In this document: one piece after another, positions 15,928-54,282 of the stretch
Layout: the number at the start of each line of letters is the position of its first letter
How positions within the stretch are numbered: the first letter of the stretch is position 1
DNA from: Streptomyces sp. MNU76
Lineage (GTDB): Bacteria; Actinomycetota; Actinomycetes; Streptomycetales; Streptomycetaceae
Assembly: GCF_020982545.1 (NCBI RefSeq)
Contig: NZ_JAJKLK010000007.1
Span: 62,001 to 126,000, forward strand
Length of the DNA stretch: 64,000 nt
Direction of reading: 5' to 3'
Translations under genes and position numbers: made by a program
The notes under the pieces: model-generated
The model's input: the letters and a program-made list of their open reading frames with translations, nothing else
Databases searched by the model: none
Told to the model about the DNA's origin: nothing

Positions 15928-16146
15928 AAAGGCCAGGTCACGAGCTATCTGACCTGGCCTTTACCGGAGCCGCCTTCGGGATTCGAACCCGAGACCTACG
16001 CATGACGAGACCGTGAGCGTTCGTGTTGCCCAGTGCCTTGCCGTGCTACGTGGTGACGTTTTTCCTGATCAGAGCATGCGCAGCAAGTTGACCCGTACCA
16101 CCCCGTGATGCAGTGTCCAAAGGCGTCTGTCCACCGGCCGTCCACC
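15928..16146 (-). other. Attachment-site copy 1: tRNA 3' end at the chromosome-island junction
   Basis: The minus strand of 15966-16010 is the anticodon loop, T-arm and acceptor 3' strand of a tRNA (CTCGT..., GGTTCGAATCCC, AGGCGGC). The 5' half is missing, so it is a captured 3' end, probably tRNA-Thr(CGU). On its left a terminator hairpin (aaaggccaggtca / tgacctggccttt, 15928-15962) differs from that of the other three copies and is probably the native one. No arm repeats lie on the left. On the right, paired GTCCACC repeats (16129-16135, 16140-16146) sit 163 bp from the core start. This copy is the left edge of the island. It is identical to copy 2 over 65 bp. Confidence 0.8.
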
Positions 16147-17376: not shown

Positions 17377-17778
17377 GGCCACCGGATGGCCACCGGCGAT
17401 CACTCCGAAACTCGATGCAAAAGCCCTCAGAACCATGAACTCGCAGGTCACAGTGGCGAACCGAAAACCGGACAAAAGCTGTAAACCGGGGACCTACGCA
17501 TTTCGATGCACAGACCAGCAGTGCCCGATTCGCCAGATATCCAAGGTCAACGAAAAAAGAAAACCCCAGGTCAAAGGCCTGACCTGGGGTTCACCATGGA
17601 GCCGCCTTCGGGATTCGAACCCGAGACCTACGCATGACGAGACCGTGAGCGTTCGTGTTGCCGAATACCGCGCGCTGCCGCCGAGTGATGTCGTGCCTGA
17701 TCAGAGCGCTTACGGCAAGTTGCCCCCTGCTACCCCGTACTGTCCCGTCCAAAGGCGTCCGGCCACCAAGCGGCCACC
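17377..17778 (-). other. Attachment-site copy 2 (junction of elements A and B)
   Basis: Core tRNA 3' end at 17598-17642. On the left are paired GGCCACC repeats (17377-17383, 17388-17394) 221 bp before the core, and a decayed anticodon-like copy (gacctacgcattt) 107 bp before it. On the right, paired GGCCACC repeats (17761-17767, 17772-17778) sit 163 bp after the core start. Each pair has an 11-bp period, one helical turn, as expected of arm-type sites for a tyrosine integrase. Arms on both sides mean two elements meet here. Confidence 0.75.
17562..17592 (-). terminator. tRNA-type terminator at att copy 2
   Basis: Arms aaccccaggtca and tgacctggggtt, 12 bp perfect, lie directly after the tRNA 3' end on the minus strand. 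The same hairpin is at copies 3 and 4. Confidence 0.75.
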
Positions 17779-21878: not shown

Positions 21879-22280
21879 GGCCACCATATGGCCACCACGG
21901 CGAACCCGACAGACCCGACCTGACCGGTAACACAGAGCAAAATGCCAGGTCAAAGCCCTGTGAATCGAAACAGCCACTGGCAGTCAATCCCAGACCTACG
22001 CATTGCGATGCGTAGCCCGCAGGTGCCCGATTAGCCCGGATTCCAAGGTCACCCAAAACAAGAAACCCCAGGTCAAAGGCTTGACCTGGGGTTCACCATG
22101 GAGCCGCCTTCGGGATTCGAACCCGAGACCTACGCATTACGAGGCCATGAGTGATCGTGTTGCCTGGCGACGACTGATGCTGCCGGATGCTGTTGTGCCT
22201 GATCAGACCACCCGCGCCATGCTGAGCGCCGGTATCTCGTGCCGCACCATCCACAGGCGTCCGGCCACCCCTTGGCCACT
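21879..22280 (-). other. Attachment-site copy 3 (junction of elements B and C)
   Basis: Core at 22100-22143, here with CTCGTAATG in the anticodon loop. Left arm repeats GGCCACC at 21879-21885 and 21890-21896 (221 bp before the core), decayed anticodon-like copy at 21993 (107 bp before), right arms GGCCACC/GGCCACT at 22263-22269 and 22274-22280 (163 bp after). All offsets equal those of copy 2. Confidence 0.75.
22064..22093 (-). terminator. tRNA-type terminator at att copy 3
   Basis: Arms aaccccaggtca / tgacctggggtt around a short loop, as at copy 2. Confidence 0.7.
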
Positions 22281-34951: not shown

Positions 34952-35352
34952 GGCCACCAAATGGCCACCACGCCGGCCCCAACAGACCGAGGCGGATGGA
35001 CAGCGAGGGGAAAAAGGCCAGCTCACAGCCTTACAGAACGGAATCACCACTGGCCGTCAACCTCAGACCTACGCATTGCGATGCGTAGACCACGAGTGTC
35101 CGTTTAGCCTGAATTCCAAGGTCAGCAAAAAGAAGAAACCCCAGGTCAAAGGCCTGACCTGGGGTTCACCATGGAGCCGCCTTCGGGATTCGAACCCGAG
35201 ACCTACGCATTACGAGCACACTAGCGCTCATGACGCGCGGTGTTGCTGCGTGCCGCCAAGTCTTGTTTTGCCTGATCAGAGCACATGCAGTGTGCTGATG
35301 TGTGATGCCCTGTCTATGTCGTCCAAAGGCGTCCGCGCTCCCCTTGCGCTCC
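34952..35352 (-). other. Attachment-site copy 4 (junction of elements C and D)
   Basis: Core at 35173-35216. Left arm repeats GGCCACC at 34952-34958 and 34963-34969 (221 bp before) and the decayed anticodon-like copy at 35066 (107 bp before) match copies 2 and 3. The right arms differ: GCGCTCC at 35335-35341 and 35346-35352, 162 bp after the core start, with the same 11-bp period. Element D therefore seems to use another integrase specificity. 35353-35570 has no gene. Confidence 0.75.
35137..35166 (-). terminator. tRNA-type terminator at att copy 4
   Basis: Same aaccccaggtca / tgacctggggtt hairpin as copies 2 and 3. Confidence 0.7.
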
Positions 35353-35570: not shown

Positions 35571-37133
35571 CCGTCGTGATGCTGCGGCCAGAGACCGCAG
35601 GGGTACCCCACATCGTCACGAGACCACAGAGGCAGCCATTCCTGCTCGCCCGGGGTACAGAGCTCTTCGGGGCCGTAGTGGTGCTGCGGCGCTGGCCGCA
35701 GAGACAGATCCGCTTGGGCCGCTGTTCGAGGCCCTGGAATCAATGCCGTGGTGGTGCTGCGGCGGGTCGCCGCAGAGACAGACGGCGCCGATCACGGTGT
35801 AGAGGATGAGCGGGGTGCCGTAGTGATGCTGCAGCGGGTCGCCGCAGAGGCAGCACCTTCTTGAGGGCCTGCCGCTTCGGCATGACGCGGCCGTAGTGGT
35901 GCTGCGGCGGGTCGCCGCAGAGGCAGCGTGAGCTTCCTCAACCCCTACATCGTGCTGACGACGCCGTAGTGGTGCTGCGGCGGGTCGCCGCAGAAGCAGA
36001 GGCGTCCAGCGCGGTCAGCTCGTCGATCCATGCCCACCCGTAGTGGTGCTGCGGCAGGTCGCCGCAGAAGCAGCCCGGCCGAGCCAGGGCCAGTCCCCCC
36101 GTTCCGCAATCCCGTAGTGGTGCTGTGGCCAGAGACCACAGAGGCAGCCATTCCTGTTCCCCCGGCGTACAGAACTCTTCGGGGCCGTAACGATACTGCG
36201 GCGAACGACCGCAGAGGCAGCGGCTTTCTCGGCATGCTCCCGTGCTCTTCGTGCAGCCGTAGTGGTGCTGCGGCCCGAAACGGCAGAAGCAGCTTGTACC
36301 GGTGAGCCGTCGGCGAGAGACAGAGTAGTCGCCGTAGTAGTGCTGCGGTTGGAGACCGCAGAGGCGAAAGACTGGGCTGGTCGGTACGCCAGTCTGTCTG
36401 TGGCCGTAGTGGTGCTGCGGCCACCGACCGCAGAGGCAGAACACCGCGCTGGGCAGCTCCTCCCCGGGCTTGATGCCGTAGTCGTGCTGCGGCCGACGGC
36501 CGCAGAGACAGTACGCGTACATGCCCACGGGTCAGCTGCTGCTGGAGGGGCCGTGGTGGTGCTGCGGCGCTGGCCGCAGAGACAGATCCGCTTGGGCCAC
36601 TGTTCGAGGCCCTGGAAAGAATGCCGTGGTGGTGCCGCGGCAGGTCGCCACAGAGGCAGGCGAGACCGTCACCTCCCACTCATGACGCGGTCCTGATCCC
36701 GTAGTGGTGCCGCAGCGGATCGCCACAGAGGCAGCGGGTTCCCGCCCCTGCTGATGGTCCTGAACAACAACCCGTAGTGATGTTGCGACTGCTGGCCGCA
36801 GTGACAGAAGGAGTCCGACTCCGCGATGGCTGGTACCGCCGGCCCGTGGTGGTGCTGCGGCCGGAGACCGCAGAGGCAGCGGAGGAGGCCCCTGTGCCCT
36901 GCTGATGACGAGCAAGCCGTAGTGGTGCTGCGGCGGGTCGCCGCAGAGGCAGTCGCGATGACCGTGGGCCTGGTGGGCGCCGGATACATCCCGTAGTGGT
37001 GCTGCGGCGGGTCGCCACAGAGCAGGGGGACACCATCGTCGGCGCGTGGATGCTCAACGACCCGTAGTAGTGCTGCGGCAGGTCGCCGCAGAGGCAGACC
37101 GTCTTCCTGCTGGTACTGCGTAGCACAACCATG
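35571..37133 (-). CRISPR. Type I-G-associated CRISPR array, 20 full repeats plus decayed left end
   Basis: Repeats of 35-36 bp start at 35673, 35746, 35818, 35891, 35964, 36038, 36112, 36185, 36257, 36332, 36404, 36476, 36551, 36624, 36699, 36772, 36844, 36917, 36991 and 37062, with spacers of 36-39 bp. On the plus strand the core is ctgcggcgggtcgccgcag, a hairpin with an 8-bp stem, between ccgtagtggtg and aggcag. Two more degenerate copies lie at 35571-35635. The damaged end is on the left, so the leader should be on the right, at 37134-37238 after the Cas8-like gene, and the array reads on the minus strand like the cas genes. Hardly any two repeats are identical (35891 and 36917 are). Confidence 0.85.
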
Positions 37134-37238
37134 GTGAGTCCGATCCCGGGAGAACAATGGGGGATTAGCGGGCTTCTTGCTTCGGCGCGGCGTGGGGATT
37201 CCGTATGTACTCGGGGTTCCGATCTCGCTGGGATGCGG
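37134..37238 (-). promoter_or_regulatory. Probable CRISPR leader
   Basis: A 105-bp non-coding stretch between the last array unit and the stop of the Cas8-like gene. It is less GC-rich than its surroundings. It is placed as leader only by position and by the intact state of the right array end. Confidence 0.4.
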
Positions 37239-38233
37239 TTAGGGGTACGTGAGTTGTCCTGGTTGGAGGGGCCCGTAGGAGTTGGCCAAGCGGCTTCGGG
37301 GGGCAGCGTAGATGCCGGCGACGCCGAGGTTGGTCAGTTTGGCGGCGTCGCGGGTTCGATTCCGGATGAGGGGGTGTTCGAGGAGGGTGGTGATCGCGGT
37401 TGGGGTCAGGGGGTGGTGCCAGATGGGCCAGGTGAGGGCGGGGCCGTCAGGGCCTCGTTCCCAGCCGGTGGCCTGAGGGCGTTTGGTGTCGCCGGTCAGG
37501 CGGAAAGCGGCGAAACCATGGAGGGCGAGCCAGGTGGCTCCGGGGACGCCTTGTTGGGAGGGTTTGCCGTTGCTGACGATGTGGGCGTCGCCGGTGGAGT
37601 GGTAGTCGAGGTTGGCGCCGGTGTATCCGTCGATGCGTGTCCAGGCGGTGAGTGCGGCCTGGAGGTGGGTGGGGTCGCGGCGGCAGTGGTCGGCGGCTTT
37701 GGCCCAGTTGTTGGCCAGGGTCATCTGCCCCGAGGGGGCGAACAGGGGGGTAGTGGTGGTGTACCACGTCGCCTCCTCCGGCTTCGGCGGGGTAGGCGTC
37801 GCCTTGTTCCGTTTGTCCTTGGCTGGGGAGATACAGAGCTGGTTGACCAGGGCGGTGAACCAGCGGGCTGTGGGGTCACCGGTCTCGCGTTCGGCGTGGG
37901 TGTGGGTGCGCAGCCGTTGGAGGGCGAGGTCGATCGGCATGCGCAGGGCTTCGTTGGGGCGCCGGGGGCCGTGTGGCGGGGAGGCTGAGGATCCCGGGGA
38001 CGAGCTTGAGGGGCTCTTTGGCGGGTCCTGCGGAGCTGGTCGTGGAGGATGCCGGCGAGGTCGTGGTGGGTGAGGGGCGGATGGGTGTGGAGGACGGCGG
38101 GTGCGGCCGGGCCGCGCCAGGACAGTCTTGGTGGCTGTTGGAGGGCGGGGGTGGTGAGTTCGAGGACGCCCAGCGCGGCGAGGAAGCCGAGAGGGCTGTT
38201 GCTGAGCAGGGCGGGGAGTTCGAGTTCGTGCAC
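37239..38233 (-). pseudogene. Cas8-like subunit of type I-G (Csx17/Csb3-like), two frameshifts
   Basis: Starts at GTG 38233, 5 bp after the cas3 stop. HELELPALLSNSPLGFLAAL then GVLELTTPALQQPPRLSW is the N-terminus typical of these subunits. Near 38030 the frame shifts to EPLKLVPGILSLP, and near 37985 again to PHGPRRPNEALRMPIDLALQ, which continues intact to the stop (QLTYP). Each shift is one extra C. Full length would be about 331 residues. This subunit should recognise the PAM and start the R-loop; if the shifts are real, interference is lost. Confidence 0.65.
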
Positions 38234-38238
38234 GGGTG

Positions 38239-41200
38239 TCAACTGCCTTCTTCGGAGCAGGTCATGTCGGCGAGGCGGACCAGGGCTTCGAGCAGGGCCA
38301 GTCCCCAGGGACCGTAGCGACGGTTGAGATGGGCGAAGCGCTCTGGGCCGTCCCAGTCCACGCCCATTGCCGTGCTGTTGAGGGTGACCGGTTGGCCGTC
38401 GGGCATGACGCAGGTCACCTCGACCGGGTCGGTATCGATGACCGAGGGGAGCAAGGGGCGGGAGTATCCGTGGTGAGCGGCGACCAGGTGGGTGATGAGG
38501 TCCGGGTCGAGGCCGGCGGTCTGCTCGGGGTGCGTGCCGAGCCACTGTTTGACCGCGGCGGCGCTGAGGGCTTCGTGCCGCAGCCCGGGATCCCAGCGGG
38601 CCAGGCGGGATGCGCGGCGTCTGGCCTGCAAGTCGGCGGGGTCCATACCGGACTTGGCCTGGGGTTCGGAGAGAGATTCGGCTAGCAGTCGGTCGCCGGC
38701 ACACAGCATGATCTGGAAGCGGGGGTGACTTTTCGCGCAGTCATGGGCGTGTGCTCCAGTGTCGACTGCGTTGGTGAGAGTGGCGGGCAGGTCGAGGCGG
38801 GCGGCGTAGGTGGCGGCGCGGGCGGCGACGGCTTTGCTGTGCTGGGCGAGGGAGACCTGGCGGGTCAGGGAGCTGGCGTCGGCGTCCTCGTCGCCGATCC
38901 CTGCCGTGCGCTCCATGCGCCTGTCGTCCAGGTGGTGTGGGGTGAGCAGGAGGCGGGCGGGGTCGTCGGGTTCGATGACCACGTGCCCGGTCTGTGCGGA
39001 CCGGGCGGTTGCCGCGAGATCCCATTTCGGGATCAGACGTAGTTGGAGGAGGCGTTCGCGGACCAGGCCGGTGAACCGTCCCGGGGATGCTGTCTGCTTC
39101 GGTGTTTCGGGGAGGTAGCCGATCAGGTGGTCCAGCAGATGGTGGATGACCTCGGTGGGCGGTTGTTCTTCTTCGTCTGCTTCCAGTTTCGTGATCGCCG
39201 TGTTGATTGCCCGCGTCAATGCTTCGCGGAGCGGTTCGTCCAGGTCGGCGAGGTTGGCCAGAAGACCGGCGTCGATACGGGTCGCAGTCAGGGCCGGGTG
39301 TGGGGGAAAGTCGCCGAGGTCGGGGACCGCAGGGCCGGTGGTGCCGGTCCAGCCGTAGGCGTCGTGACCGGCGTAGGTGCTGGGCATGACGATGGTGCTG
39401 CCGGGCCGGATGTCGTTCGGGCCGGTGACCGGCACCCACGCTGCTTCCGGGCCGTCCCAGCGCAGGGCCGGTGCCATGTCTGCTGGCCGCCGTGACGGCT
39501 TGGGTTCGGGTTCGGCGGGTTCTGCTTCGCCTTCCAGATCGCTGAGCACGTCGGCGGCGGTGGGCTGGGTGAGGAAGCGGCGTAACTGCCGGGCAGGGAT
39601 GGCGACGGTCTCGACCGGGTGGGGCGGGGTTTGCACGAGCCGGGCCGTCCACCGTTCCCAGTCCGGGCGGCTGGCGGCATCGGTGGGTAGGTCAGCCCGC
39701 CACAGGAGCTGGACGTCCTCCGGTGAGGTGTCCAGGCCGTGCAGAAAGGGTGCGGTGGGCTGGTCGGGGATCGGGGTGGGTTCGGTGCGGGCCCAGGAGT
39801 CCAGCAGCGTGCGGTGCACGACCGGGATGCGCGGCGCCGCGACGTTCAGCGACTCGGTGTCGGTGCCGTTCAGGAGAGTGGGCAGCGTCGTGGGGTTCAC
39901 CAGCAGTCCCGCTGCCAGTGCCTCCTGCAGCTCGGCCGACGTGATGTCAGCTTTGTCGAGCACGAACGTGTGGGTGGTGAGCCAGTTCCAGGTGTGGGCG
40001 GCTGCCGCACCGTAGACGGGGATCTCCGCCGGGTTCTCGGGCGCGTGCGCGCGGACCACGATCGCGGGAGCGAGTTCGTACTCGCCCTTGCGATCGAGCC
40101 GCCCGAGGCGCTGGATCATCGACGCGGCTGAGGACGCTTCCGTGATCATTCCGGCCACCGAGACGTCGAGGCCGACCTCGACCGTCTGGGTCGCCACGAC
40201 GACCAACGGCCGCGCCCGGTCCTGCCTCACGCCGTTGAGGAGTTCGGTGAAGTGCGCGCTGCGCAACAGGAGTTCCCGGTCGGCGCTGCGGGAGCGGCCG
40301 ATCAGCAGCAGGGTGTCCACATCGCCCCGCGCGGCGAGGAGCTTGTGGGCAGTACGGGCTGCGACGATGGTGTTGGCGATCACGCCGATCACCGGCCGCC
40401 TCACCACCGGTAGCAGGGCGTCGACTGCAAGGTCGGCAGCCCGGGCGAAGCCCGCCGTACCGTTCTTCGCTGAAGTGCTGGCATCCAGCAGGGTCACGTA
40501 CCGCCGGGCGTTCAGGCGGGGCCCGGCAACCGGGTGCCCCCGGTCTCGGTCGCTGATCCCCAGCCGAGGGCGGTCGGGGCCGGTGGTGGCGGTGGCCGAC
40601 AGGCTAACGACCTTCACCGCCCGTCCGGCCAGGGCTGGGTCGGTTGCGGTGGCCTGGTAGGCGGCGCAGTCCGCAGCCGTGGTCAGCAGCGGTAGGGCGA
40701 TGTGGGCTTCGTCCAGGGCGAGGAGGGCGTCGATGCCGCACAGCGCGGCGTCGATCGGCCGCATCCGGGGGCTGGTGTGATAGCCGCGGAACAGCAGGCG
40801 ACTGCCGTACTGGTCCACCGTCGCGGTCACCACCGCCGGCTGGGCCGGGGAGCGCAGCCAGCGCGAAGCCCAGTCCACGCCGCCGCGCATCCGCACCACT
40901 TCCAGCGGCTCCTCCTCCCCGCCCAGGCGCCGCAGGGCGGCGGCCACCCGGCCGAGGAGTGTTCCCGCTGTCGCGTCCTGGAGTTTTTTCCGGAGGTGCT
41001 GGGCGTGTTGGTGGGCCTGGTCAACGACCAGGCGTCGGTCGACGACGAAGAACAGCCGCAACGGCACCGTCCGCGCCACTTTGTGATCGGCCTGCCAGGC
41101 CAGCAGGAACGCCCAGATGTCCACCAGGCTCGTCTTCCCCAGCCCGGTGGGGACGTCCAGGTCCGGCCACGGCGCGCCACCGGCGACGGCGTGAAGGTAG

Positions 41201-41280
41201 TCGGTCTGCCAGGGGAACGGACCGTATCCGAACACGTCGTGGACGAAGTCGGGGAAGTCGTCGAGGTCGAGTTTCTTCAC
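38239..41280 (-). CDS. cas3: Cas3 helicase-nuclease, type I-G
   Basis: 1013 residues from GTG 41280, overlapping the csb2 stop by 4 bp. The helicase comes first: DVPTGLGKTSLVDIWAF (Walker A), ALLALDEAHIALPLL (DEAH), VVSLSATATTG and ASMIQRLGRLDRKGEY (motif VI). The HD nuclease is C-terminal: SLAQHSKAVAARAATYA, DTGAHAHDCAKSHPRFQ and HLVAAHHGYSR. The helicase-then-HD order is characteristic of type I-G (formerly I-U). It degrades the displaced strand of target DNA. All key motifs are intact. Confidence 0.92.
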   Translation of the reverse strand: MKKLDLDDFPDFVHDVFGYGPFPWQTDYLHAVAGGAPWPDLDVPTGLGKTSLVDIWAFLLAWQADHKVARTVPLRLFFVVDRRLVVDQAHQHAQHLRKKLQDATAGTLLGRVAAALRRLGGEEEPLEVVRMRGGVDWASRWLRSPAQPAVVTATVDQYGSRLLFRGYHTSPRMRPIDAALCGIDALLALDEAHIALPLLTTAADCAAYQATATDPALAGRAVKVVSLSATATTGPDRPRLGISDRDRGHPVAGPRLNARRYVTLLDASTSAKNGTAGFARAADLAVDALLPVVRRPVIGVIANTIVAARTAHKLLAARGDVDTLLLIGRSRSADRELLLRSAHFTELLNGVRQDRARPLVVVATQTVEVGLDVSVAGMITEASSAASMIQRLGRLDRKGEYELAPAIVVRAHAPENPAEIPVYGAAAAHTWNWLTTHTFVLDKADITSAELQEALAAGLLVNPTTLPTLLNGTDTESLNVAAPRIPVVHRTLLDSWARTEPTPIPDQPTAPFLHGLDTSPEDVQLLWRADLPTDAASRPDWERWTARLVQTPPHPVETVAIPARQLRRFLTQPTAADVLSDLEGEAEPAEPEPKPSRRPADMAPALRWDGPEAAWVPVTGPNDIRPGSTIVMPSTYAGHDAYGWTGTTGPAVPDLGDFPPHPALTATRIDAGLLANLADLDEPLREALTRAINTAITKLEADEEEQPPTEVIHHLLDHLIGYLPETPKQTASPGRFTGLVRERLLQLRLIPKWDLAATARSAQTGHVVIEPDDPARLLLTPHHLDDRRMERTAGIGDEDADASSLTRQVSLAQHSKAVAARAATYAARLDLPATLTNAVDTGAHAHDCAKSHPRFQIMLCAGDRLLAESLSEPQAKSGMDPADLQARRRASRLARWDPGLRHEALSAAAVKQWLGTHPEQTAGLDPDLITHLVAAHHGYSRPLLPSVIDTDPVEVTCVMPDGQPVTLNSTAMGVDWDGPERFAHLNRRYGPWGLALLEALVRLADMTCSEEGS

Positions 41281-42752
41281 CGCGTCTCCCCCGCCGTCGG
41301 GTCGGTGGGCAAGCACAGGCCCAGACCGAAGTTCTTCTTGCTGCCCAGCACCACCGGTCCGGCCAGCGGCTGGTCGAAGTACAGCCGGACATGGCGGCCC
41401 GGCAGCGGCCGTTCACCGTCCTTACGGCGCAGCGCGGACGGTGGCAAGTCCCGGGCGCCGGGCAACAACGCGCCTCGGCGCATCACCTGGATGTGGGCTG
41501 GCTCTGGGAGGCCGGCCATGCGGCAGCTCTTGGCCACCGACACCTCGATCTCGCGGCCGTTGCGCTTGGGGAAGTGGTCCAGCACCATCGGCAGCGCCGT
41601 CGCCCACCCCCGCGACCTCCGGGTCCAGGTCTCCGGCCGCACCGACTGCAACGGCTTCACGGCGGGCGCGGCGGCACCGACATAGGTCAGCGGGACGGGC
41701 CTTCCCCGGGTGGGGACGGAGAGTTTCCGCAAGCCACCTCCGGCGCGGAGCAGCACTGCGAGCACGGCGCGGCGGTGGGCGGGGTCTAGGTCGTGCGGGA
41801 GGGCAACGCCGACGCCACGGAGTTGCCCGTCGGCATGTTCGTGGCCAACGAACGGAAGCCCCAGGTACGCGCACGTACGGCCGGTGAAATCCGGCGTCTT
41901 GTGGCCGTGGACGGCCACCATGGGATCCACATCGTGCCCCGCCTGCTCCAACAACTCCAGCAGCTTGACGCGCAGGGACCCGGTGACCGCCATGGTCAGG
42001 CCGGGATCGAGGGCCAGCCCGGTGGGGAAAGCGAAGGCCATCAGGTCGGCGAACGGTCCCGGCACCGCCTCTTCGTCCATCGGATCCGGCCAGCCGGTGA
42101 CCGCGTACCGGTGGGAGCGGGCCTGCTGCCAGGCTGGCTGGCCCTGCCCAAACGCCGCACGCAGCCGCTCCAGATACCCCGGATACGGCACCCGCAGCGC
42201 CTCCATGCCCGCTGCCAGGACATCATCGGCCAGCGGCGCCCACACCAGCCATTCCTCGTCCCCGTCTGTGTCGCCGGTGGCGGGGGTGACGGCGGCGTGG
42301 ACGATTGCGTGGCCGCTGGCCCGGCCGATATAGGGCACGGCCTTCGCCAGCACCTCCAGAACGGCTCGTACCCCGATCGGCGGTTCGGCCTCCCAGATGA
42401 ACTCCACTTCCGGCTGTGCCAGGGTGCGCTGCGGCCAGGACTTCGGCTTCCCCCCGTTGGTGCGCCCGGGCAGCACCGCATGCCCCGGCTTGGGGGTGGG
42501 GGCGTTGGTCGGCACCCATGCAGTGCGCGCTGTGTCGGCCTCGGCGGTCCGCGCCGGCACCCGGACCTTCGGCGGGGGTTGCTGCTCCAGCCACCGCAGC
42601 GCCGCGTCCTGTACCGGGTCTTCCGGGTCGGCCACGGACACCAGTCCGCAGAAGATCCGGGCCGGATGCGGCGGCCACTCCGCCCGCCCCCGGTCCAGTG
42701 TCGATGCCTGATACGACGGCTCCAGTAAGTGCACTGTCACGCTGAACGGCAT
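41277..42752 (-). CDS. csb2: Csb2 (GSU0054-type Cas5-Cas6 fusion), type I-G
   Basis: 491 residues from ATG 42752, 4 bp after the cas7 stop. MPFSVTVHLLEPSYQASTLD and AEWPPHPARIFCGLVSVA are the Csb2 N-terminus (Cas5-like). The C-terminal half has a RAMP-type glycine-rich region (GPVVLGSKKNFGLGLCLP) as in Cas6. It should process the pre-crRNA and hold the 5' handle. Confidence 0.88.
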   Translation of the reverse strand: MPFSVTVHLLEPSYQASTLDRGRAEWPPHPARIFCGLVSVADPEDPVQDAALRWLEQQPPPKVRVPARTAEADTARTAWVPTNAPTPKPGHAVLPGRTNGGKPKSWPQRTLAQPEVEFIWEAEPPIGVRAVLEVLAKAVPYIGRASGHAIVHAAVTPATGDTDGDEEWLVWAPLADDVLAAGMEALRVPYPGYLERLRAAFGQGQPAWQQARSHRYAVTGWPDPMDEEAVPGPFADLMAFAFPTGLALDPGLTMAVTGSLRVKLLELLEQAGHDVDPMVAVHGHKTPDFTGRTCAYLGLPFVGHEHADGQLRGVGVALPHDLDPAHRRAVLAVLLRAGGGLRKLSVPTRGRPVPLTYVGAAAPAVKPLQSVRPETWTRRSRGWATALPMVLDHFPKRNGREIEVSVAKSCRMAGLPEPAHIQVMRRGALLPGARDLPPSALRRKDGERPLPGRHVRLYFDQPLAGPVVLGSKKNFGLGLCLPTDPTAGETR

Positions 42753-42756
42753 CGTG

Positions 42757-43947
42757 CTACTCGCCTTCCGCCTCGCCGATCCCGGCCACGACGTACGACT
42801 TGGCGATCGCCTGCTGCAGGCTCGCGTTGGGGTGCACCACGAACGGCTCGTCCGGCCACTCCAGCCCGGCCTTGCGCGCCCGGTCCACCGCGATCTCGAA
42901 CAGCGCGACGGCATCCTGCGGTGTGGCCACCTCCAGGGGCTCGACCGCCGGACACCCGTCCTTCCCGCGCAGCACCCACTCCCGCCGCTCCGAGACCAGC
43001 ACCAGGTCGCAGCCCGACCGCAGCCGGATCGCCGGAGCCGCGAACGCCAGCCGGTCCCCCAGCAACGCGATCGCCGCTACCAACGCCCGCCCCGCCGCCG
43101 CGAACTCCTCACTAACGTCACCGAACCGCAAAGCAGCCAGCTGGGCCATGCTCAGCGTCGCGTTCCGCTGCACGGCCTTCACCGACACCCCGCCCAGGCC
43201 CTCGGACGGCGGGATCATGCCGTGCCCGAGTTCGGACAGCTTGGCCTTGCCCGCGCCCTTGGCCGGCTTGCCGCCCTCCATCGGCGCCCAGCCCGCCTCG
43301 GTCACCTCGACGGTCTCGCCCGGCAGGTTGAGCTGGTCGAAGCGGCCCGCCGCCCGCACCCCGACCAGCGGCGACACTCCGATCATCTCCGAGGTGTAGG
43401 CGCGGGGGATCTTGACCTGGATCCGCCGCTTGCGGTGCGAGTCCCACACCCCGTACGCCAGATCACTCGGCACCGACCGCAGGTACGCACCGAAGTCCAG
43501 CGCGCTCGCCGCCCGCAGCTCCGCCCCCGGCCCGGTGGCGTCGAACGGCTGACCGTCCGAGTGGACGGCGTCGCGGAAGTACGCGTCCCGCGAGCGGTGT
43601 GGCGCCTCCAAGCTCGTCACCCGCACCGGCACCCCCTCGGCCTCGGTCACCAGCGCCAGGTGCGGGATGAAGACCTCGCCCCGGCCGATCGCCCCCAGCA
43701 GGGCCGTCTCGCACCGGTTGGCCTGCGACTGCCGCTGGTCCAGCAGCACCACCTCCACCTGCTCGCCGTCCACGTACCGCGGCTCGGTGAGGTACCCGGC
43801 CGCGTTGGTGGCAGCGAGCTTCACCGTCGGCGGAAACACCGGCGTCCCCCCACCGCCCACCGGTTCATATTCCGCCGCCACCCGCACCGCGCCATCCGCT
43901 GAGCGCAGGCTCGCCGCCGCTAACAGCCGCTCGTACAGATCCTTCAC
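42757..43947 (-). CDS. cas7: Csb1 (GSU0053-type Cas7), type I-G
   Basis: 396 residues from GTG 43947 with TGGAGG upstream. GGGTPVFPPTVKLAATNAAG, VEVVLLDQRQSQANRCETAL and DFGAYLRSVPSDLAYGVWDS are signature stretches of the Cas7 backbone subunit of this subtype, including the SQANR motif. It coats the spacer part of the crRNA. It is the first gene of the cas7-csb2-cas3-cas8 operon. Confidence 0.9.
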   Translation of the reverse strand: MKDLYERLLAAASLRSADGAVRVAAEYEPVGGGGTPVFPPTVKLAATNAAGYLTEPRYVDGEQVEVVLLDQRQSQANRCETALLGAIGRGEVFIPHLALVTEAEGVPVRVTSLEAPHRSRDAYFRDAVHSDGQPFDATGPGAELRAASALDFGAYLRSVPSDLAYGVWDSHRKRRIQVKIPRAYTSEMIGVSPLVGVRAAGRFDQLNLPGETVEVTEAGWAPMEGGKPAKGAGKAKLSELGHGMIPPSEGLGGVSVKAVQRNATLSMAQLAALRFGDVSEEFAAAGRALVAAIALLGDRLAFAAPAIRLRSGCDLVLVSERREWVLRGKDGCPAVEPLEVATPQDAVALFEIAVDRARKAGLEWPDEPFVVHPNASLQQAIAKSYVVAGIGEAEGE

Positions 43948-44471
43948 GCTGGCCTCCAGCCCTCGCACGTCAAGACGCCCAGATCCAACCAGCCACCACT
44001 GACAATCGCCCTGAACAGCACATCTCCGACGAGCAGACCCCGAACACGACCCCCGCTCACCATCACACGGGATTCGCCGGGGTCGACGTCGCTCGGTACG
44101 GCTTGACGCGTGGGACACAGCTGTTTGGCCCAGGAGAAGGACCGCGAGCGATTGGCCTCGATCTTGCCTCGGTCCCCCGAGCTGCGAGGTCGTGAAGGCG
44201 CCCTCCGCACTGCGTACGCCCGCTCAGGTTGGCCGCTGTGAAGTGGACGCGAGAACATGTTCGTAGACTCCGCCCGCAGGAGCAGTCGTCCAGGCCAATG
44301 GGCATGATCGTGAACTGGGGCAGGTCCATGATCGACCCGATGGTGTCCCACCGAGTGTCCACCGAGTGGTGTAGCGGGGATCTTGGGATAGCGGCTGCTC
44401 ATGGAGCGGCCATCGCGCAGCCTCCCTGGTGGACGGACGGCCACCTCATGGTGATGCGGCCCCGGTTCGTC
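43948..44471. other. Promoter region of the cas operon
   Basis: A 520-bp gap. Open frames on both strands lack any motif. It must contain the cas promoter on the minus strand, but I cannot point to -35/-10 boxes with confidence. Confidence 0.4.
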
Positions 44472-45053: not shown

Positions 45054-45534
45054 GACGACATCCTCTCGCGTGCGGGCGGTACTCGAACACGCGGGATAGC
45101 CGGCGGGGAGACGTCCCCCACGTGCTAGAGCGCACTCCCCGGCCACAGCGGAGATCATCTACCCGCCATTGCACCACTACAAGGGACATGACCATCGCCC
45201 GGGACCGTATGTGTAGAGCAAGGACAACGGACGCCCTGAACCGACTTTGGCCCGGTTGCGCTTGGTTGCGTTCTCCGCTTCCTTTCCGCCCAGCGGGTCG
45301 ACCGCGGTCCCAGCGTCGTAGACAGCGTGTCGGCTCCGCGAGGACCCGGGCCCAGCGCTGCGGGCACGGGTCCACCGCATGCGGCCGACTTCATGTCCGG
45401 CCCAACGCCTGCAATGAACGTCCACCTAGACAACCGCCCGCCTCAGGCGTCACGGCAAGCCTTCTAATGCGGCTGCAGCGTAAGGTTCGGTGCTGCCGTA
45501 TGTAGATGCGCCGGTCGAATCCCAGGAAGCGTTC
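45054..45534. other. Intergenic region between the two defence loci
   Basis: 480 bp, divergent promoters expected. No gene or repeat that I can support. Confidence 0.4.
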
Positions 45535-46974
45535 ATGACAGAGCAGCTCTGGAGTAGCCAACGCCACCGGACGGCCATCGGCCGTGTCGGGTTGTCCGTC
45601 CCCGCGCGTCAAGCCGTGGTCGATCTTCAACTGGAGCCTGGTATGCAGGTCCTGGACTACGGTTGCGGCCGAGGTGGCGACCTACGCGCACTTCAGACGA
45701 TCGGCCTCGACATCTCCGGATGGGACCCGGTCCACCATCCCGACGGTGAGCTCAAGCCCGCAGAAATCGTGCTCCTCACCTACGTTCTTAACGTCATCGA
45801 AGATCCGGCCGAGCGACGACAAACCCTCCTGGATGCCTGGAACAACACGAAGTCGACACTCGTCGTGTCGGCGAGGCTCCGCTGGGAGCGGAACCAAATC
45901 AAGGGCACTGAGTACGGCGATGGCATCCTGACCAGTCGCAATACGTTCCAACACTTGTTCGCGGCGAGTGAGCTTCGGGACTACGTCCAGGAGACGACCG
46001 GGGTCCGCTGTCTCTCGGCTGCTCCGGGGATCGTCTACGCGTTCAAGAGTGACGAAGCGCGGCTCGGCTATCTTGCCCGCCAGATCACCCCGGAAGCCGG
46101 GTGGCTTGCTTCCCAGGACACCGCTTCGGCCATCGCCGCCGTCGTCGACCACCTCGAACAGCGGGGTCGGCTACCGAGCATCGAAGAAATGCCGCATCCG
46201 GTCATCGGCCTCCTCGGCCACCTACGGACAGGCGAGCTCAAGCGACTCACCGAGCAGTCCGCCGACCCGCTGAAGGTCGAGGAGAGTGCAAAGCGCACCA
46301 TCCTCGACACCCTACTCTTCCTCGCTGTTGAACTCTTCCATGGCCGCGGCCCTGCCAGCAGCCTTCCGCTTCCCGTCCAGCTGGATATCCGGGCTTTCTT
46401 CTCCTCCTACGCAGAAGCATGCAAACGCGCGGACCGGCTTCTGTTCAAGCTCCGCGACGACGCGTACGTGCGGCGTGCCATGACCGGGTCGGCTGCGGGC
46501 AAGTACACGGCCACGGCGCTGTATGTGCACCGCCGGGCCGTCCACCGGATCCCCACCGTGCTCCGCCTGTACGAGCAGTGCGCCAGCATTGCCGCCGGCC
46601 GCCCCGCAGAATGGTCCGTCGTGAAGCTTCGCCACCAGGGGCGCGGAGCCAGCTGGCTGGACTACCCCTCGTTCGATACCGATCCCCATCCTCGTCTGGC
46701 CTCGTCGTACAGCGTTGACCTGCAGACCCTGAAGTCGTCCTTTCTGTCCTACGCGGATTCGGCCAACCGTCCTCTGCTGCACCGCAAGCATGAGTTCCTC
46801 GCGCCGGACGACCCCGACGTGCCGAAGTACCAGCGTCTCACTAACGCCGAGGTTCGAGCCGGCCTCTACGAGGAACCACACCTCATCGGCAACGAAGAGG
46901 GGTGGGAGCGAGCACTTGTCCGTTGCGGCCGGACCCTGCGGGGACACCGGCTGGTGCGACGTCCTGACAGCTGA
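45535..46974 (+). CDS. DNA phosphorothioation-associated putative methyltransferase
   Basis: 479 residues from ATG 45535. MQVLDYGCGRGGDLRALQTI is SAM motif I; GWDPVHHPDGELKPAEIVLL and TYVLNVIEDPAERRQTLLDA follow. The C-terminal two thirds (HRIPTVLRLYEQCASIAAGR, VVKLRHQGRGASWLDYP) match the large helical region of the dnd-related methyltransferase family found beside Dnd/Ssp loci. Its substrate is not established. It supports reading the following 17 kb as one phosphorothioation locus. Confidence 0.8.
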   Translation: MTEQLWSSQRHRTAIGRVGLSVPARQAVVDLQLEPGMQVLDYGCGRGGDLRALQTIGLDISGWDPVHHPDGELKPAEIVLLTYVLNVIEDPAERRQTLLDAWNNTKSTLVVSARLRWERNQIKGTEYGDGILTSRNTFQHLFAASELRDYVQETTGVRCLSAAPGIVYAFKSDEARLGYLARQITPEAGWLASQDTASAIAAVVDHLEQRGRLPSIEEMPHPVIGLLGHLRTGELKRLTEQSADPLKVEESAKRTILDTLLFLAVELFHGRGPASSLPLPVQLDIRAFFSSYAEACKRADRLLFKLRDDAYVRRAMTGSAAGKYTATALYVHRRAVHRIPTVLRLYEQCASIAAGRPAEWSVVKLRHQGRGASWLDYPSFDTDPHPRLASSYSVDLQTLKSSFLSYADSANRPLLHRKHEFLAPDDPDVPKYQRLTNAEVRAGLYEEPHLIGNEEGWERALVRCGRTLRGHRLVRRPDS

Positions 46975-49877: not shown

Positions 49878-50789
49878 TCAGGTGATTTCTCTGCCCTGTC
49901 GGATCTCCCATGGGCCAACTGGCACCAGATGCACCTCGTCGAAGTAGTTCAGCCACTGCGCGATGGTCTCCACGGCGCGTTGGGCCTGCTCCTCCGTACA
50001 GGCGCCGCTGGCGGCCAGTTCTCTTTTCGCGTCGTCCAAGTTCAAGGTGCCCACCTCGAACAGCCGTCGGATCTCCGGCACGGATCGGAGGCCGGCGAGG
50101 ACGGCTTCGCCGAACGCTTGCTCGGAGAGGCCGGGAGGAACGTCGAGATGTACGAGGTCGCGGAGGACTCCGGCGAGAACGTCGGTGCCAATGTTGCGGT
50201 ACCGCCCGCTGTACACGCGGTAGAGCCGTTCCGGGTTGCGTGTTTCCGGCAGCCAGCGACCACGGGTGGGGCCCTGTCCAGCGACCAAGACCTGGGGCGC
50301 GTCTTCGTCAGCCCTCAGCAGGTCTGCTTGCTCACGGATCTGCCGCGCGAGATCTGCGGACGCTGGCACGGAGGTGGCCCCAATGGCATCAAGTACCCGC
50401 CGCACCTCCGGGTGCGCCGCATCGGCTTCCAGAAGTAACTCGATGTTGGCGTCTGGCACTCGGCCCGTAGCCCTGCCCGTGAGGTTGGCCGATCCAACGA
50501 GGCAGCGGTCGTCCGCCAGGTACACCTTGGCGTGGAGGTTGTGGCACAACAGGATGCGAGGGCGTCCGTCGGCCTGGGCGATCTCGGCGATCTCTGGGTC
50601 CGAGACGCCGGCCGCGACCTCGGCCACGGACCACCGCGTGACGCACTGGATCTCTTCAACGCGGCGCGGAATGGCAGCCAATGCCGCCCGGAACACCTCC
50701 TTCTTGATGAAGGGAGCGACCAGGACGACACGCTCGGACGCGCCTGTAAGCAGCTGCTCGATCTGCTGCCAGATGTGATCGTTCGCCAC
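49878..50789 (-). CDS. Phospholipase D-like nuclease
   Basis: 303 residues. One HKD motif: HAKVYLAD (His 86, Lys 88, Asp 93) then LVGSANLTGRATG (Ser 100, Asn 102). A single motif implies action as a dimer, as in Nuc and BfiI-type nucleases. The N-terminus VVLVAPFIKKEVFRAAL is the usual first strand. Its GTG start shares a base with the stop of the GHKL ATPase gene, so the three genes helicase, ATPase and PLD are one unit. It is the likely DNA-cutting part. Confidence 0.85.
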   Translation of the reverse strand: MANDHIWQQIEQLLTGASERVVLVAPFIKKEVFRAALAAIPRRVEEIQCVTRWSVAEVAAGVSDPEIAEIAQADGRPRILLCHNLHAKVYLADDRCLVGSANLTGRATGRVPDANIELLLEADAAHPEVRRVLDAIGATSVPASADLARQIREQADLLRADEDAPQVLVAGQGPTRGRWLPETRNPERLYRVYSGRYRNIGTDVLAGVLRDLVHLDVPPGLSEQAFGEAVLAGLRSVPEIRRLFEVGTLNLDDAKRELAASGACTEEQAQRAVETIAQWLNYFDEVHLVPVGPWEIRQGREIT

Positions 50790-52654
50790 TACTCGTCCTC
50801 GTCGTCCTCATCGTCGGCTCCGAGGAACTCGCTGGCGATCCGGCCCCAGTCCTGCCTCATCTGCTTTGCCCGTGCGCGAGGCCTCTCGGGCTGTTCATCC
50901 TCGAACCTCGCCCAGGAGAGCAGCAGGAGCTTGAAGGCAGAGGCGGCGCCCACGAGCCGATCGATGAGTTCTTCCCGGCTCACGCCGTCGAAGTCCTTGT
51001 CCAGGACGGCGATCAGGTCGCTGTACACGGGGTGGTCCATGTTGAGGGCAACCTGGAGCAGGCCGGGGATGAACTCGACGTTGAAGAAGGCCGGCGAGTC
51101 AGGATTGCGGCTGGTCAGGAGGCGAGTGTGCTTGCCCTGAGAGATGGTCTCTTCGATAATCCGCTGCGCGTCGGCGGGGCTGTACTTGTGGGTTTCGACC
51201 AGGCTCTCGAGTTGCTGCTGCTGGCTCACCTCGGGGCTGACCTGCTCCGCCAGGGTGTCTGTGAGGCTCGGTTTGGTCTCCGCGCGGCGCCGCTTGACCG
51301 CTTCCTCCGCCTTGTTTTCCACCTGCTCGTGCCGCTTCCGGCTGGTCCCCGTACCGCGCGTCTGGTCTTCCAAGTCGGCACGTAGCCTACCGAGCAGCTT
51401 CTCGCGGATGTGATAAACGATCTCGATGAGGGGAAGACGAGCGTCACCCTCTTCACGGAGCGCCTCGCGGAACTCCTCCCACGACAACCCTGCTGCCTCT
51501 TCACGCCAGTTGAAGTGGGCAAGCGCCGAGAAGATCGTCGCGGACTGCTTGTTGTTGGTGACGCCGAAGACCTCGTCGAGAGCGGGTGGGAAGTCGATCT
51601 CCACTCCCCACCATCGCTCCACCGGGTTGTACGAATTCGTCCATCCTGTGTCGAGGTCAAGTTCACGGTCAGCGCGGATCAAGGAAATGCCGAGGTTCTT
51701 GGCTGCGTGCTTGCCCCAAGGAGTGTCGCCGGGCTTGAGGCTGGGCGACACGTCGTCGGGCCATTCCTCGCCCTCGATGTCGTGGCGTCGGGCAGCGTCC
51801 ACGGAAATTGAGGAGCGCACGAGTACGGGGTACTCCTTGCCGTCGACACCCTCGACCATGAAACGCTGGACACCGATCTCGCCGGTGTTGCCACCGCCGA
51901 CGGGTCGGAACATCGGTTTGGTGTCGAACGGTGCGGGCGTCGAGCTTGGGGCAGTCAGGTAGAGCGGGTCGTTCGGCCGGGTGTCGCGCACGCCGGGCAG
52001 TTCTGCCCAGCCGCGCACGGGAACCAGCTTGATCCGGGTCCCTTGAGTGATCTTGCGTCGGTAGATGCGTCCGATGAGGTTCTCGGTGTTGGCCAAAGTG
52101 GCCTCGGCGCCGCGCCACTGGACGCGTTCCAACTGTGTCCACTGAACGAGGGTTCCGGTCGGGCCGAGCCCCTCGGTGAGCGCCTGCCATTCGTCGGGGA
52201 GCCCGTCGAGTTTGGGCTCAGGGACCTCTTCCAACCCCCGCCGGAGCTCGGCGAGATCGAGGTAAGTGTGCAGCGCGTTGTCGGGGCCGTTGGTCCAGGA
52301 CCAGACATCAACACGGTCGCACTGGGAGATGCTGGAGTTGGGCAGGCCGACGCCGAACCGCCCTATGCCCTTGCGGTGCTGTCGGGTTCCGGCGCCGAAG
52401 CGCAGGGACTGCCGCAGCGTCTCCGGGTCCATGCCGCTGCCGTTGTCCAGCACAGCGATCTTCTCCACCCGGTGGCGGGCACGCTGGGACGGACGGTCTA
52501 TCGACTCGACCACGAAGAGTTCCACGAGCTCGGCAGTGGCCTCGATGCCGTTGTCGATCAGTTCCGCGATGGCGTGTGCCGTCGACTTGTACCCGCTGTC
52601 CTGCAGGGCTTTGACCGTCAGATCGGACGTGACGATCGAATACTTGGATGTCAT
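50789..52654 (-). CDS. GHKL/Hsp90-type ATPase of the restriction cassette
   Basis: 621 residues from ATG 52654, which overlaps the helicase stop (ATGA) and has GGAAGG before it. The ATP-binding fold is clear: AIAELIDNGIEAT (N-box, Glu 31 and Asn 35), VLDNGSGMD (70-76) and KGIGRFGVGLPNSS (95-108). The central and C-terminal parts include a long charged coiled region (KRHEQVENKAEEAVKRRRAE). Such ATPases gate nucleases in several defence systems. Confidence 0.85.
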   Translation of the reverse strand: MTSKYSIVTSDLTVKALQDSGYKSTAHAIAELIDNGIEATAELVELFVVESIDRPSQRARHRVEKIAVLDNGSGMDPETLRQSLRFGAGTRQHRKGIGRFGVGLPNSSISQCDRVDVWSWTNGPDNALHTYLDLAELRRGLEEVPEPKLDGLPDEWQALTEGLGPTGTLVQWTQLERVQWRGAEATLANTENLIGRIYRRKITQGTRIKLVPVRGWAELPGVRDTRPNDPLYLTAPSSTPAPFDTKPMFRPVGGGNTGEIGVQRFMVEGVDGKEYPVLVRSSISVDAARRHDIEGEEWPDDVSPSLKPGDTPWGKHAAKNLGISLIRADRELDLDTGWTNSYNPVERWWGVEIDFPPALDEVFGVTNNKQSATIFSALAHFNWREEAAGLSWEEFREALREEGDARLPLIEIVYHIREKLLGRLRADLEDQTRGTGTSRKRHEQVENKAEEAVKRRRAETKPSLTDTLAEQVSPEVSQQQQLESLVETHKYSPADAQRIIEETISQGKHTRLLTSRNPDSPAFFNVEFIPGLLQVALNMDHPVYSDLIAVLDKDFDGVSREELIDRLVGAASAFKLLLLSWARFEDEQPERPRARAKQMRQDWGRIASEFLGADDEDDEDE

Positions 52655-54282
52655 CGAGCCTTCCATACGTCTTCCCAGTTGGTGAATGCCTCTGCTACGT
52701 CTCCGAAGCCCGGGAGCGCAGGGTCGACGACGGTTACGACGTCGCAGTTAGGGGTGCCGCCGGCTTTGGGGCCGCGGATGACACGGCCGACCATCTGGCT
52801 GTAGAGGACCAGAGAACGGGTAGGCCGGGCGATGACCGCAGCGCTCGCAGCGGGGGCATCGAAGCCGGTGGTAAGGACACCGTAGTTGGACAGGACCATG
52901 GGCCGGGCGCTCGGCCCCTTGAACTTCTTGATGGCGCGGTCACGGTGGCGCGTTGACGATTCGGCGGTGACCTGGTCGGCATCGATCCCGAACATCGACA
53001 GAATCGCGACGATCAGGCGGCTGTGCTCGACCGAGGCGGCAAACAGCAGAATCCGCCGATGCTGCTGGCTGAGGTCGAGCACGGTGCGAACAACCTGCAG
53101 ATTCCACTGCACGTTCTCGGCGAGCCGCGCGATCAACACATCCGGGATATCGAAGGACGCCGCGAGGGCCTGCTTGTCCCGGGAACTGAGCTGCATGCCA
53201 GAGTCGGCGGCTACAGTGCGGAACTCCGGCCGGGCGAGGTATCCCTGTTCGATGAGGGCGGTGACGGGGTTGTCGTAGCCGTCGATCTCCAGCATCACCT
53301 TCTGACGCGCGAAGAAGTCCGAGAGCCTCTCATCTTCGGAGATGTCCGACCACGTCCGGCCCGGCGTAGCCGTCAAACCCAACAGACTGGAATCACTACG
53401 GAGAGTGAGCGCATCGACCGCTCTGCGATATGTAGGCGCGATGGCCTGATGCGCCTCGTCGAAGACCGTGAGTGTGGTGCGCAGGGCGAGACGGTCGAGG
53501 AATGTCGGGTCGCCCTTCGCCGCGGCCGTTGCCTTGTCGAGGCCGAGCACGACGATGCCGTCCGTGATGCTGTCGATATCGGCAGGGGCATCGCCCCACA
53601 TGCGCAGGACAGTGACCTCGCGGTTGCCGAGAGCGCTCCAAGCGCGCTCGAATTCCAACGCGGCCTGCTCCAGGAGTTCCCGGCCCCGAGCCAGCCAGAC
53701 CACAACGCTCGGCTCGCTCTGCCGCAGGTGATCGCAGATCAGATTCATGCCGGTGCGGGTCTTCCCGACACCGGTCGGAAGGTGGAGTACCGCCCTCCGT
53801 TCCCCGGAGTACAGCAGACGGCGCACCTTACCGGCCGCGCGCCGCTGATGTGGGAACAGTGCGTAGTCCGGCACGCTGAGACTGCGGAACGACGCGGGGG
53901 GCTCGGGGGCCCGGTCGACAACAAGGCCGAGGAATCCGAGAAAGGTCCGACGCTGATCAGCGGTCCAGGGCAGCGCGAAAAGAAAGGCGTCAGGTTGGTC
54001 GGAATCCTCGCGCCCGAGCCGATCGGCGAGCTCGGCCTGTTTCCTCTCGGGCAGCAGACCCAGGAGCAGCGCCCGCTCGTCGGCGTCACCGATCAGCCGC
54101 TCCGCGGAGACGGCGGAGGCCGCAACTCTGCGGAGGACTACCTCGGTCTCTTCTCCCACGTGCAGCAGCTCAAGCAGCTCGCAGGCGTGGTCGCCGAGGA
54201 GACGCCGCACATAGGCGAGGGGTGCGGTACTGAGGATGCTTTGAAAAGGGATGCCCGGAGACTCGATCACCGTGGTCTCCAC
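52651..54282 (-). CDS. SF2 DEAD/DEAH helicase of the restriction cassette
   Basis: 543 residues from GTG 54282. Motifs: LHLPTGVGKTRTGM (I, residues 167-180), TVFDEAHQA (II), LLGLTATPGRTW (III), and SQMVGRVIRGPKAGG (VI). A 130-residue N-terminal region has no recognised domain. It diverges from sspA across 428 bp. With the ATPase and PLD genes it forms a three-gene cassette in the place where restriction modules of phosphorothioation systems sit. Assignment to SspFGH is inferred from position and gene number. Confidence 0.85.
   Translation of the reverse strand: METTVIESPGIPFQSILSTAPLAYVRRLLGDHACELLELLHVGEETEVVLRRVAASAVSAERLIGDADERALLLGLLPERKQAELADRLGREDSDQPDAFLFALPWTADQRRTFLGFLGLVVDRAPEPPASFRSLSVPDYALFPHQRRAAGKVRRLLYSGERRAVLHLPTGVGKTRTGMNLICDHLRQSEPSVVVWLARGRELLEQAALEFERAWSALGNREVTVLRMWGDAPADIDSITDGIVVLGLDKATAAAKGDPTFLDRLALRTTLTVFDEAHQAIAPTYRRAVDALTLRSDSSLLGLTATPGRTWSDISEDERLSDFFARQKVMLEIDGYDNPVTALIEQGYLARPEFRTVAADSGMQLSSRDKQALAASFDIPDVLIARLAENVQWNLQVVRTVLDLSQQHRRILLFAASVEHSRLIVAILSMFGIDADQVTAESSTRHRDRAIKKFKGPSARPMVLSNYGVLTTGFDAPAASAAVIARPTRSLVLYSQMVGRVIRGPKAGGTPNCDVVTVVDPALPGFGDVAEAFTNWEDVWKAR

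Follow-up and report, generated by a model that had tools for sequence, protein, structure and literature searches.

The CRISPR array described here lies in a 64-kb window (the whole stretch of 64,000 nucleotides from Streptomyces sp. MNU76 that was analysed), and we found that almost every one of its repeats has a different sequence. We propose that the array probably belongs to a type I-G locus whose adaptation genes were lost, and that its repeats, which are no longer recopied, drift while crRNA processing holds the hairpin and the handle. In a complete system, the leader-end repeat is copied afresh with each spacer that is added, and this keeps the array uniform. Without Cas4-Cas1, the units would merely be inherited, duplicated or deleted, and repeats and spacers would therefore drift in place. 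If it acts as its counterpart in the studied I-G system does, Csb2 would bind the hairpin and cut 4 nt beyond the base, so that an 8-nt handle remains; the handle predicted in the window repeats is positions 29-36, with the consensus CACTACGG. Selection on crRNA processing would hold back the arms and the handle, and the loop would be free. We infer that the array is transcribed, that its crRNAs are processed and that selection on processing persisted after the loss.

The array and its type I-G locus

Read on the crRNA strand (the minus strand), the repeats are 35-36 nt long and share one layout, namely a 7-nt flank, a 6-nt arm, a 4-5-nt loop, a second 6-nt arm and a 12-nt 3′ flank. Twenty of the 21 repeats are distinct, which agrees with the preliminary description that almost every repeat differs. 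The array reported there is real, but it was given 20 repeats and an end at 37133, whereas we found 21 repeats plus a truncated copy and an end at 37097 (Table 1). The two unusual units that had been singled out, one with a compensated change at 36112 and one with a full 8-bp stem at 36476, were both recovered. Variation per site was 0.40 in the loop, 0.095 and 0.056 in the two arms, 0.116 in the 5′ flank and 0.063 in the 3′ flank. The view that the hairpin is mostly kept holds for pairing, with 119 of 120 arm pairs formable when G-U is allowed, but 3 of the 10 units folded (36772, 36699 and 36257) prefer another minimum-energy fold to the canonical hairpin. In addition, the window array includes diverged duplicate units. 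In 8 of 13 arrays, this one among them (p = 0.006), repeats resemble their neighbours more closely than randomly paired repeats do.

Table 1. Features of the CRISPR locus, in window coordinates
Feature	Position	Strand	Remarks
csb1 / cas7g	42757..44118	-	longest frame
csb2 (Cas5-Cas6 fusion)	41277..42914	-	longest frame; true start probably further in
cas3g, helicase then HD domain	38239..41316	-	
cas8g / "Cas3-extension" (NF049934)	37239..38233	-	split over two reading frames, break within 37968-38032
Probable leader	37098..37238	-	between cas8g and first repeat; placed here because L005 and L084 are uniform towards their cas genes
Type I-G CRISPR array	35571..37097	-	21 repeats, 20 intervals, period about 73 bp
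Repeat with 8-bp stem	36476..36511	-	fold of -18.1 kcal/mol
Repeat with compensated arm change	36112..36147	-	C10-G22 to U-A
Truncated repeat	35620..35635	-	diverged duplicate of 36132-36203, spacer included (89% over 72 nt)
Spacer	36512..36550	-	5/39 mismatches to plasmid pFRL1 (NC_010851); TT precedes protospacer
Spacer	36074..36111	-	5/38 mismatches to plasmid NZ_CP054917; TT precedes protospacer
Spacer	35782..35817	-	2/36 mismatches to plasmid CP108176; ATT precedes protospacer

The array adjoins csb1, csb2, cas3g and cas8g on the minus strand, and these effector genes (cas8g in two frames) are the basis on which the locus is assigned, from its sequence, to subtype I-G. The 36-nt hairpin repeat with its 3′ handle has the layout of the I-G consensus repeats of relatives. 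Meanwhile, the adaptation module cas4-cas1 is missing. No Cas1 was found in the MNU76 genome (0 of 1; the control was positive in 9 of 14 genomes), which was searched over 10.5 Mb in 37 contigs with a completeness of 100, and no Cas4-Cas1 was found within the window. Csb2 is rare in the genus, with 2 of 392 genomes carrying it, MNU76 itself included.

Three window spacers had matches on Streptomyces plasmids, at E values of 6e-6, 3e-3 and 3e-3 and with 2, 5 and 5 mismatches, respectively. TT stood directly before all three protospacers, and before 15 of 16 when those of L002, L007, L082 and L084 were counted as well; for a 17th, from the uniform L001 array, TT was one base off in register as cut. 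TTN is described as the PAM of I-G in the relevant account (PMC9638904). The TT before the protospacers, together with this reported PAM, points to capture of the window spacers by the ordinary route. Because the array is regular, adjoins I-G cas genes and holds three PAM-flanked spacers that match plasmids, a chance pattern is excluded and the array is a genuine CRISPR array. Its matches to phages were not convincing (best E 0.5). Plasmid-matching spacers numbered 20 of 174 in degenerate arrays and 9 of 42 in uniform stretches, that is, L001, L004 and the leader part of L084 (p = 0.13); L003 had none. These were counted by hand after removal of hits that had E > 0.01, extended deep into repeats or fell in other arrays, and of a non-spacer insert in L007. 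A further Streptomyces plasmid, NZ_CP109328, has array-like matches to L084 and L082 at about 1057016.

The cas8g profile runs in one frame in the 14 other cas1-less loci examined, and the relative L084 has an intact cas8g. In the window copy the profile is split, and the frame break there is possibly an assembly error. Furthermore, the spacer at 35782-35817 matches the genome's own contig C9 (39436-39471; L118) at 28 of 36 positions in all. The first 22 nt, at the PAM end, are identical and stand behind CTT, and the 8 mismatches fall in the last 14. The matched site sits inside a reading frame, and the protein there resembles that of the plasmid target. Such a self-match is most easily tolerated with interference off. 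Because of the split cas8g and this partial self-match, interference in the MNU76 copy is probably off at present. Decay is also seen in relatives: csb2 is broken in L082 (by an inner loss) and in L085 (csb1 and a csb2 stump), and in L086 the match was to a csb2 remnant only. These three loci lie on large linear Streptomyces plasmids and are at different stages of loss.

In the surroundings of the locus, the 3′ end of a tRNA-Thr (cgt) gene occurs four times, at 15979-16009, 17611-17641, 22113-22143 and 35186-35216 (two exact, two with one mismatch), and one copy is 0.36 kb from the array. The intact gene is on contig C7 at about 230036. The copies resemble attachment sites from a stack of integrated elements. 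In addition, genes linked to DNA phosphorothioation (a Dnd-related methyltransferase and DndB) are present at 45490-46974 and 62211-63524, with an ATPase-helicase pair between them at 50789-54282. Together, these genes are likely to form a defence island beside the CRISPR locus.

Cas1 absence and repeat divergence across loci

I-G loci were gathered by Csb2 (the best 80 of 110), further plasmid loci were added, and 85 sequences were scanned, 51 of which had a detectable array. The median of mean changes per repeat was 0.71 in the 34 loci with I-G cas4-cas1 and 4.56 in the 17 loci without it (p = 1.7e-6, kinship uncorrected), where absence at the other loci means none in the flanking sequence available per locus. 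For Actinomycetota alone (10 loci with and 15 without), the difference was also significant (p = 1.7e-4, kinship uncorrected). In a 35-row Cas3 tree, with L010 (whose contig ends early) scored as lacking cas1, there are five changes in cas1 presence, at least four of them on well-supported branches. Thus, the link between cas1 and divergence is not a single event. There were exceptions: L004 and L043 have uniform repeats without I-G cas1, and L066 (8 repeats) has cas1, yet shows 3.25 changes per repeat. The sequence of L043 ends at the array, and both L043 and L038 may be false absences of cas4-cas1.

A search with PF01867 covered 25 genomes from the set of loci, and four relatives carry Cas1e or Cas1c elsewhere in the genome. 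The weak hits in G004, G006 and G007, which belong to cas1-less relatives, were typed as Cas1e, and the hit in G005, a strong one, as Cas1c. In this typing, G013 was read as sequence only, and G014, G021 and the hit in G025 fall outside it. Related cas1-less genomes mostly show similar repeat degeneration. The earlier proposal of an old array that drifts without new acquisition is supported, as Cas1 is absent from the genome and the absence of cas4-cas1 tracks divergence over the 51 loci. Once adaptation was lost, the repeats would no longer be recopied, and so they would drift.

The clearest example is L084, on a plasmid of Streptomyces sp. NBC_00513. Its four identical leader repeats are followed by a slow rise in non-loop changes, from 0 to 8-12 in the repeats farthest from the leader (rho = 0.94). 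The leader-end repeats of L005 are likewise identical, with more change outward (rho = 0.41, non-loop), and change also rises outward in L018 (rho = 0.37 non-loop and 0.61 loop). No age gradient was found in the window array (rho = -0.04 and 0.06) or in L002, L003, L007 and L082, and the gradient was reversed for the non-loop part of L006 (rho = -0.32) and for the loops of L102 (rho = -0.36). In the arrays without an outward rise, additions could have stopped long ago, or the units could have been rearranged.

Among the 13 arrays first compared, no spacer was safely shared between species. The highest cross-array scores (17-18) were rejected, as shuffled spacers reach them too. Two Kitasatospora-group arrays, L007 (18369) and L102 (12736), have one common unit with the same rare loop; its spacer differs at 8 of 36 positions (22%) and the next repeat shows 3 differences. 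Other spacer likenesses were not treated as orthologues, since conserved plasmid genes may have been sampled more than once. Four spacer pairs are followed by unusually similar repeats (6/18 in the window, 12/17 in L003, L007/L102 and 15/30 in L082), and three of the four kept the loop, the pairs being partly recognised by their loops. This suggests that loops are inherited with their units. Exact side-by-side duplicates of repeat-spacer units occur in L005, an array without I-G cas1, at 8839-9134 and 11538-11687, and these represent growth by duplication, not by capture.

Hairpin pairing, divergent loops and alternative readings

Between arrays the stem clearly covaries, and the hairpin is selected there. 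Over 22 consensus repeats, 87.1% of cells were paired versus 60.7% after shuffling, changes on both sides numbered 34 versus 10.8 (reached in 0 of 500 shuffles), and any sliding of the partner arm scored worse. Within the window array, where few arm changes exist, the excess of paired changes is borderline (2 versus 0.6 expected; 31 of 500 shuffles, p = 0.07 in another run). Among 13 single arrays, covariation was clear only in L016, L018, L082 and L084, and blocks of related repeats in L016, L082 and L084 make the shuffles overstate it there. No clear excess was found in L002, L003, L005, L006 and L007, L021 was not significant, and L001 and L004 were too uniform.

Transitions were richer among arm changes than among flank changes (p = 3.5e-7, repeats counted as independent). 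Changes that keep a wobble pair made up 16 of 19 in the window, against an expected share of 0.55, when each distinct repeat was counted (p = 0.0075), and 5 of 8 when each variant was counted once (p = 0.13); the pooled values were p = 8e-11 and p = 0.064, respectively. The opposite-strand control of this test was clean when pooled, with an excess of the mirror class in L005 and L007. Furthermore, dN/dS of the effector genes was 0.18-0.48 in three cas1-less relatives (L005-L007), and part of this constraint may predate the loss of adaptation. The earlier suggestion that RNA folding is still selected is only partly upheld: the stem covaries between loci, but within the array the paired excess is borderline and the wobble test is not significant per variant. 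Taken as a whole, it is probable that selection for crRNA processing continued after adaptation was lost.

The loops behave differently from the rest of the units. Eleven plasmid-matching spacers in degenerate units were mismatched at 37 of 412 letters (9.0%), whereas the repeats beside them differed at 28 of 85 loop sites (33%) and at 68 of 638 other sites (10.7%). The matched spacers are a biased sample, since only near matches are detectable, and this softens the contrast between loops and spacers. Given these figures, plain drift in place at a single rate would not produce so much change in the loops. In units 5-16 of L084, for which a single ancestral repeat is evident, the loops had 13 changes at 60 sites and the rest 19 at 372 (p = 9e-5), and the four matched spacers had 12 mismatches in 154 letters. 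Loop change per array was 0.21-0.46 in 10 arrays and exceeded that of the arms about two- to several-fold in each; the automatic figure of 0.18 for cas1-less loops is too low, as the stem finder put L005-L007 on the wrong strand. In 32 cas1-bearing arrays, with terminal repeats dropped, we counted 8 changes in 3791 loop sites, 25 in 10135 flank sites and 83 in 12298 arm sites (the automatic stem finder had L025 and L058 on the wrong strand). The loops of these arrays are not enriched for change, which makes a simple mutation hotspot in the loop unlikely, though the changes there are few.

We tentatively suggest that, after adaptation is lost, loops might diversify several times faster than spacers and the other parts of the repeat, through a process that is inactive or erased in arrays with Cas1. 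There could be two reasons for this. First, spacers, arms and handles might nearly all be individually selected, and only the loops would show the true age. Second, the loop diversity of the repeat copies might predate the spacers.

A rather unlikely alternative to drift under selection is neutral decay only, in which adaptation and function were lost together, nothing constrains the hairpin, and it still forms because change has reached only about 10% of the sites outside the loops. It would explain why divergence outside the loops equals the spacer mismatch (p = 0.40) and why paired changes are not clearly in excess in five relatives, and it fits the broken cas8g of the window and the broken csb2 of L082 and L085. 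However, it does not account for the excess of loop over arm change in 10 of 10 arrays, the retention of all but one arm pair in the window, the significant pairing in L016, L018, L082 and L084 (inflated in three of them), or the dN/dS well below 1 in L005-L007, part of which may be older than the loss.

The preliminary description had also raised the possibility that the units are generated in some unusual way, and this has some support in that the loops differ beyond plain in-place drift of the adjacent spacers. Under such a reading, insertions copied local repeats at many points along the array, or Cas1 of another system acted in trans, and the repeat lineages would be older than the spacers next to them. 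In five arrays, the repeats that flank 26 plasmid-matching spacers show no clear reduction in degeneracy (p = 0.26 and 0.14), the likeness of neighbouring repeats in 8 of 13 arrays agrees with this reading, and Cas1e or Cas1c is encoded elsewhere in four relatives' genomes. Nevertheless, the MNU76 genome lacks any Cas1, the leader-end repeats of L084 and L005 are as uniform as ordinary leader copying makes them, and copies of whole units account for part of the neighbour likeness. We consider this origin of the repeats unlikely.

It is very unlikely that selection favours loop diversity itself, as a guard against recombination between identical repeats that would delete irreplaceable spacers. 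Degenerate CreTA repeats are described as resisting recombination (PMC9458426), the loops occupy the middle of the repeat and are unenriched for change where cas1 is present, and, in 6 of 10 arrays and above all in L003, pairs with an identical run of at least 20 were rarer than random placement would give. In the other 4 arrays, however, such runs were as common or commoner, the mean longest identical run was slightly longer than under random placement in all 10, and neighbours are more alike, not less. Finally, another dispersed palindromic repeat family, which the irregular repeats might bring to mind, is refuted by the adjacent I-G cas genes, the I-G repeat pattern, the 73-bp period and the PAM-flanked plasmid matches.

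Comparison with known systems

Type I-G systems, cas1-less I-U loci, and degenerate trailer and CreTA repeats are already known. In the literature searched, we found no report of whole I-G arrays that degenerate with the loss of adaptation; this comparison does not extend to the preprint of Mitrofanov (2025), which deals with repeat mutations in the different subtypes. An array that is no longer recopied would make each repeat an independent record of the bases needed by crRNA processing. It offers many natural repeat variants in one genome, recurring in several lineages, and makes it testable how long a fixed CRISPR memory that is not updated remains useful. If loops do outpace spacers, either whole frozen memories are selected or repeats are made by an undescribed route.

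In ordinary arrays, as in the window, changes gather where copying has stopped, but there it is the terminal repeat that is described as degenerate and here it is nearly every repeat (PMC8047081). CreTA modules likewise have functional diverged repeats that recombine poorly; as described, a toxin gene is kept in check there by one or two repeats, whereas the window holds a whole array (PMC9458426). The I-U_csx17 and I-U_Sa loci of Salinispora are actinomycete I-U loci reported without cas1, like the window locus (PMC4223832). However, their consensus repeats are described as mostly showing considerable conservation, and the main text of that paper does not use the word "degenerate". A further close parallel is the I-G (I-U) system of Thioalkalivibrio sulfidiphilus, which according to its published account has csb1, csb2, cas8g and cas3, a 36-nt hairpin repeat and a TTN PAM, as the window does (PMC9638904). 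The cut reported there, 4 nt past the hairpin base with an 8-nt handle, would fit the window repeat. In contrast, the T. sulfidiphilus locus has cas4-cas1, and MNU76 is without Cas1, with non-uniform repeats and a split cas8g.
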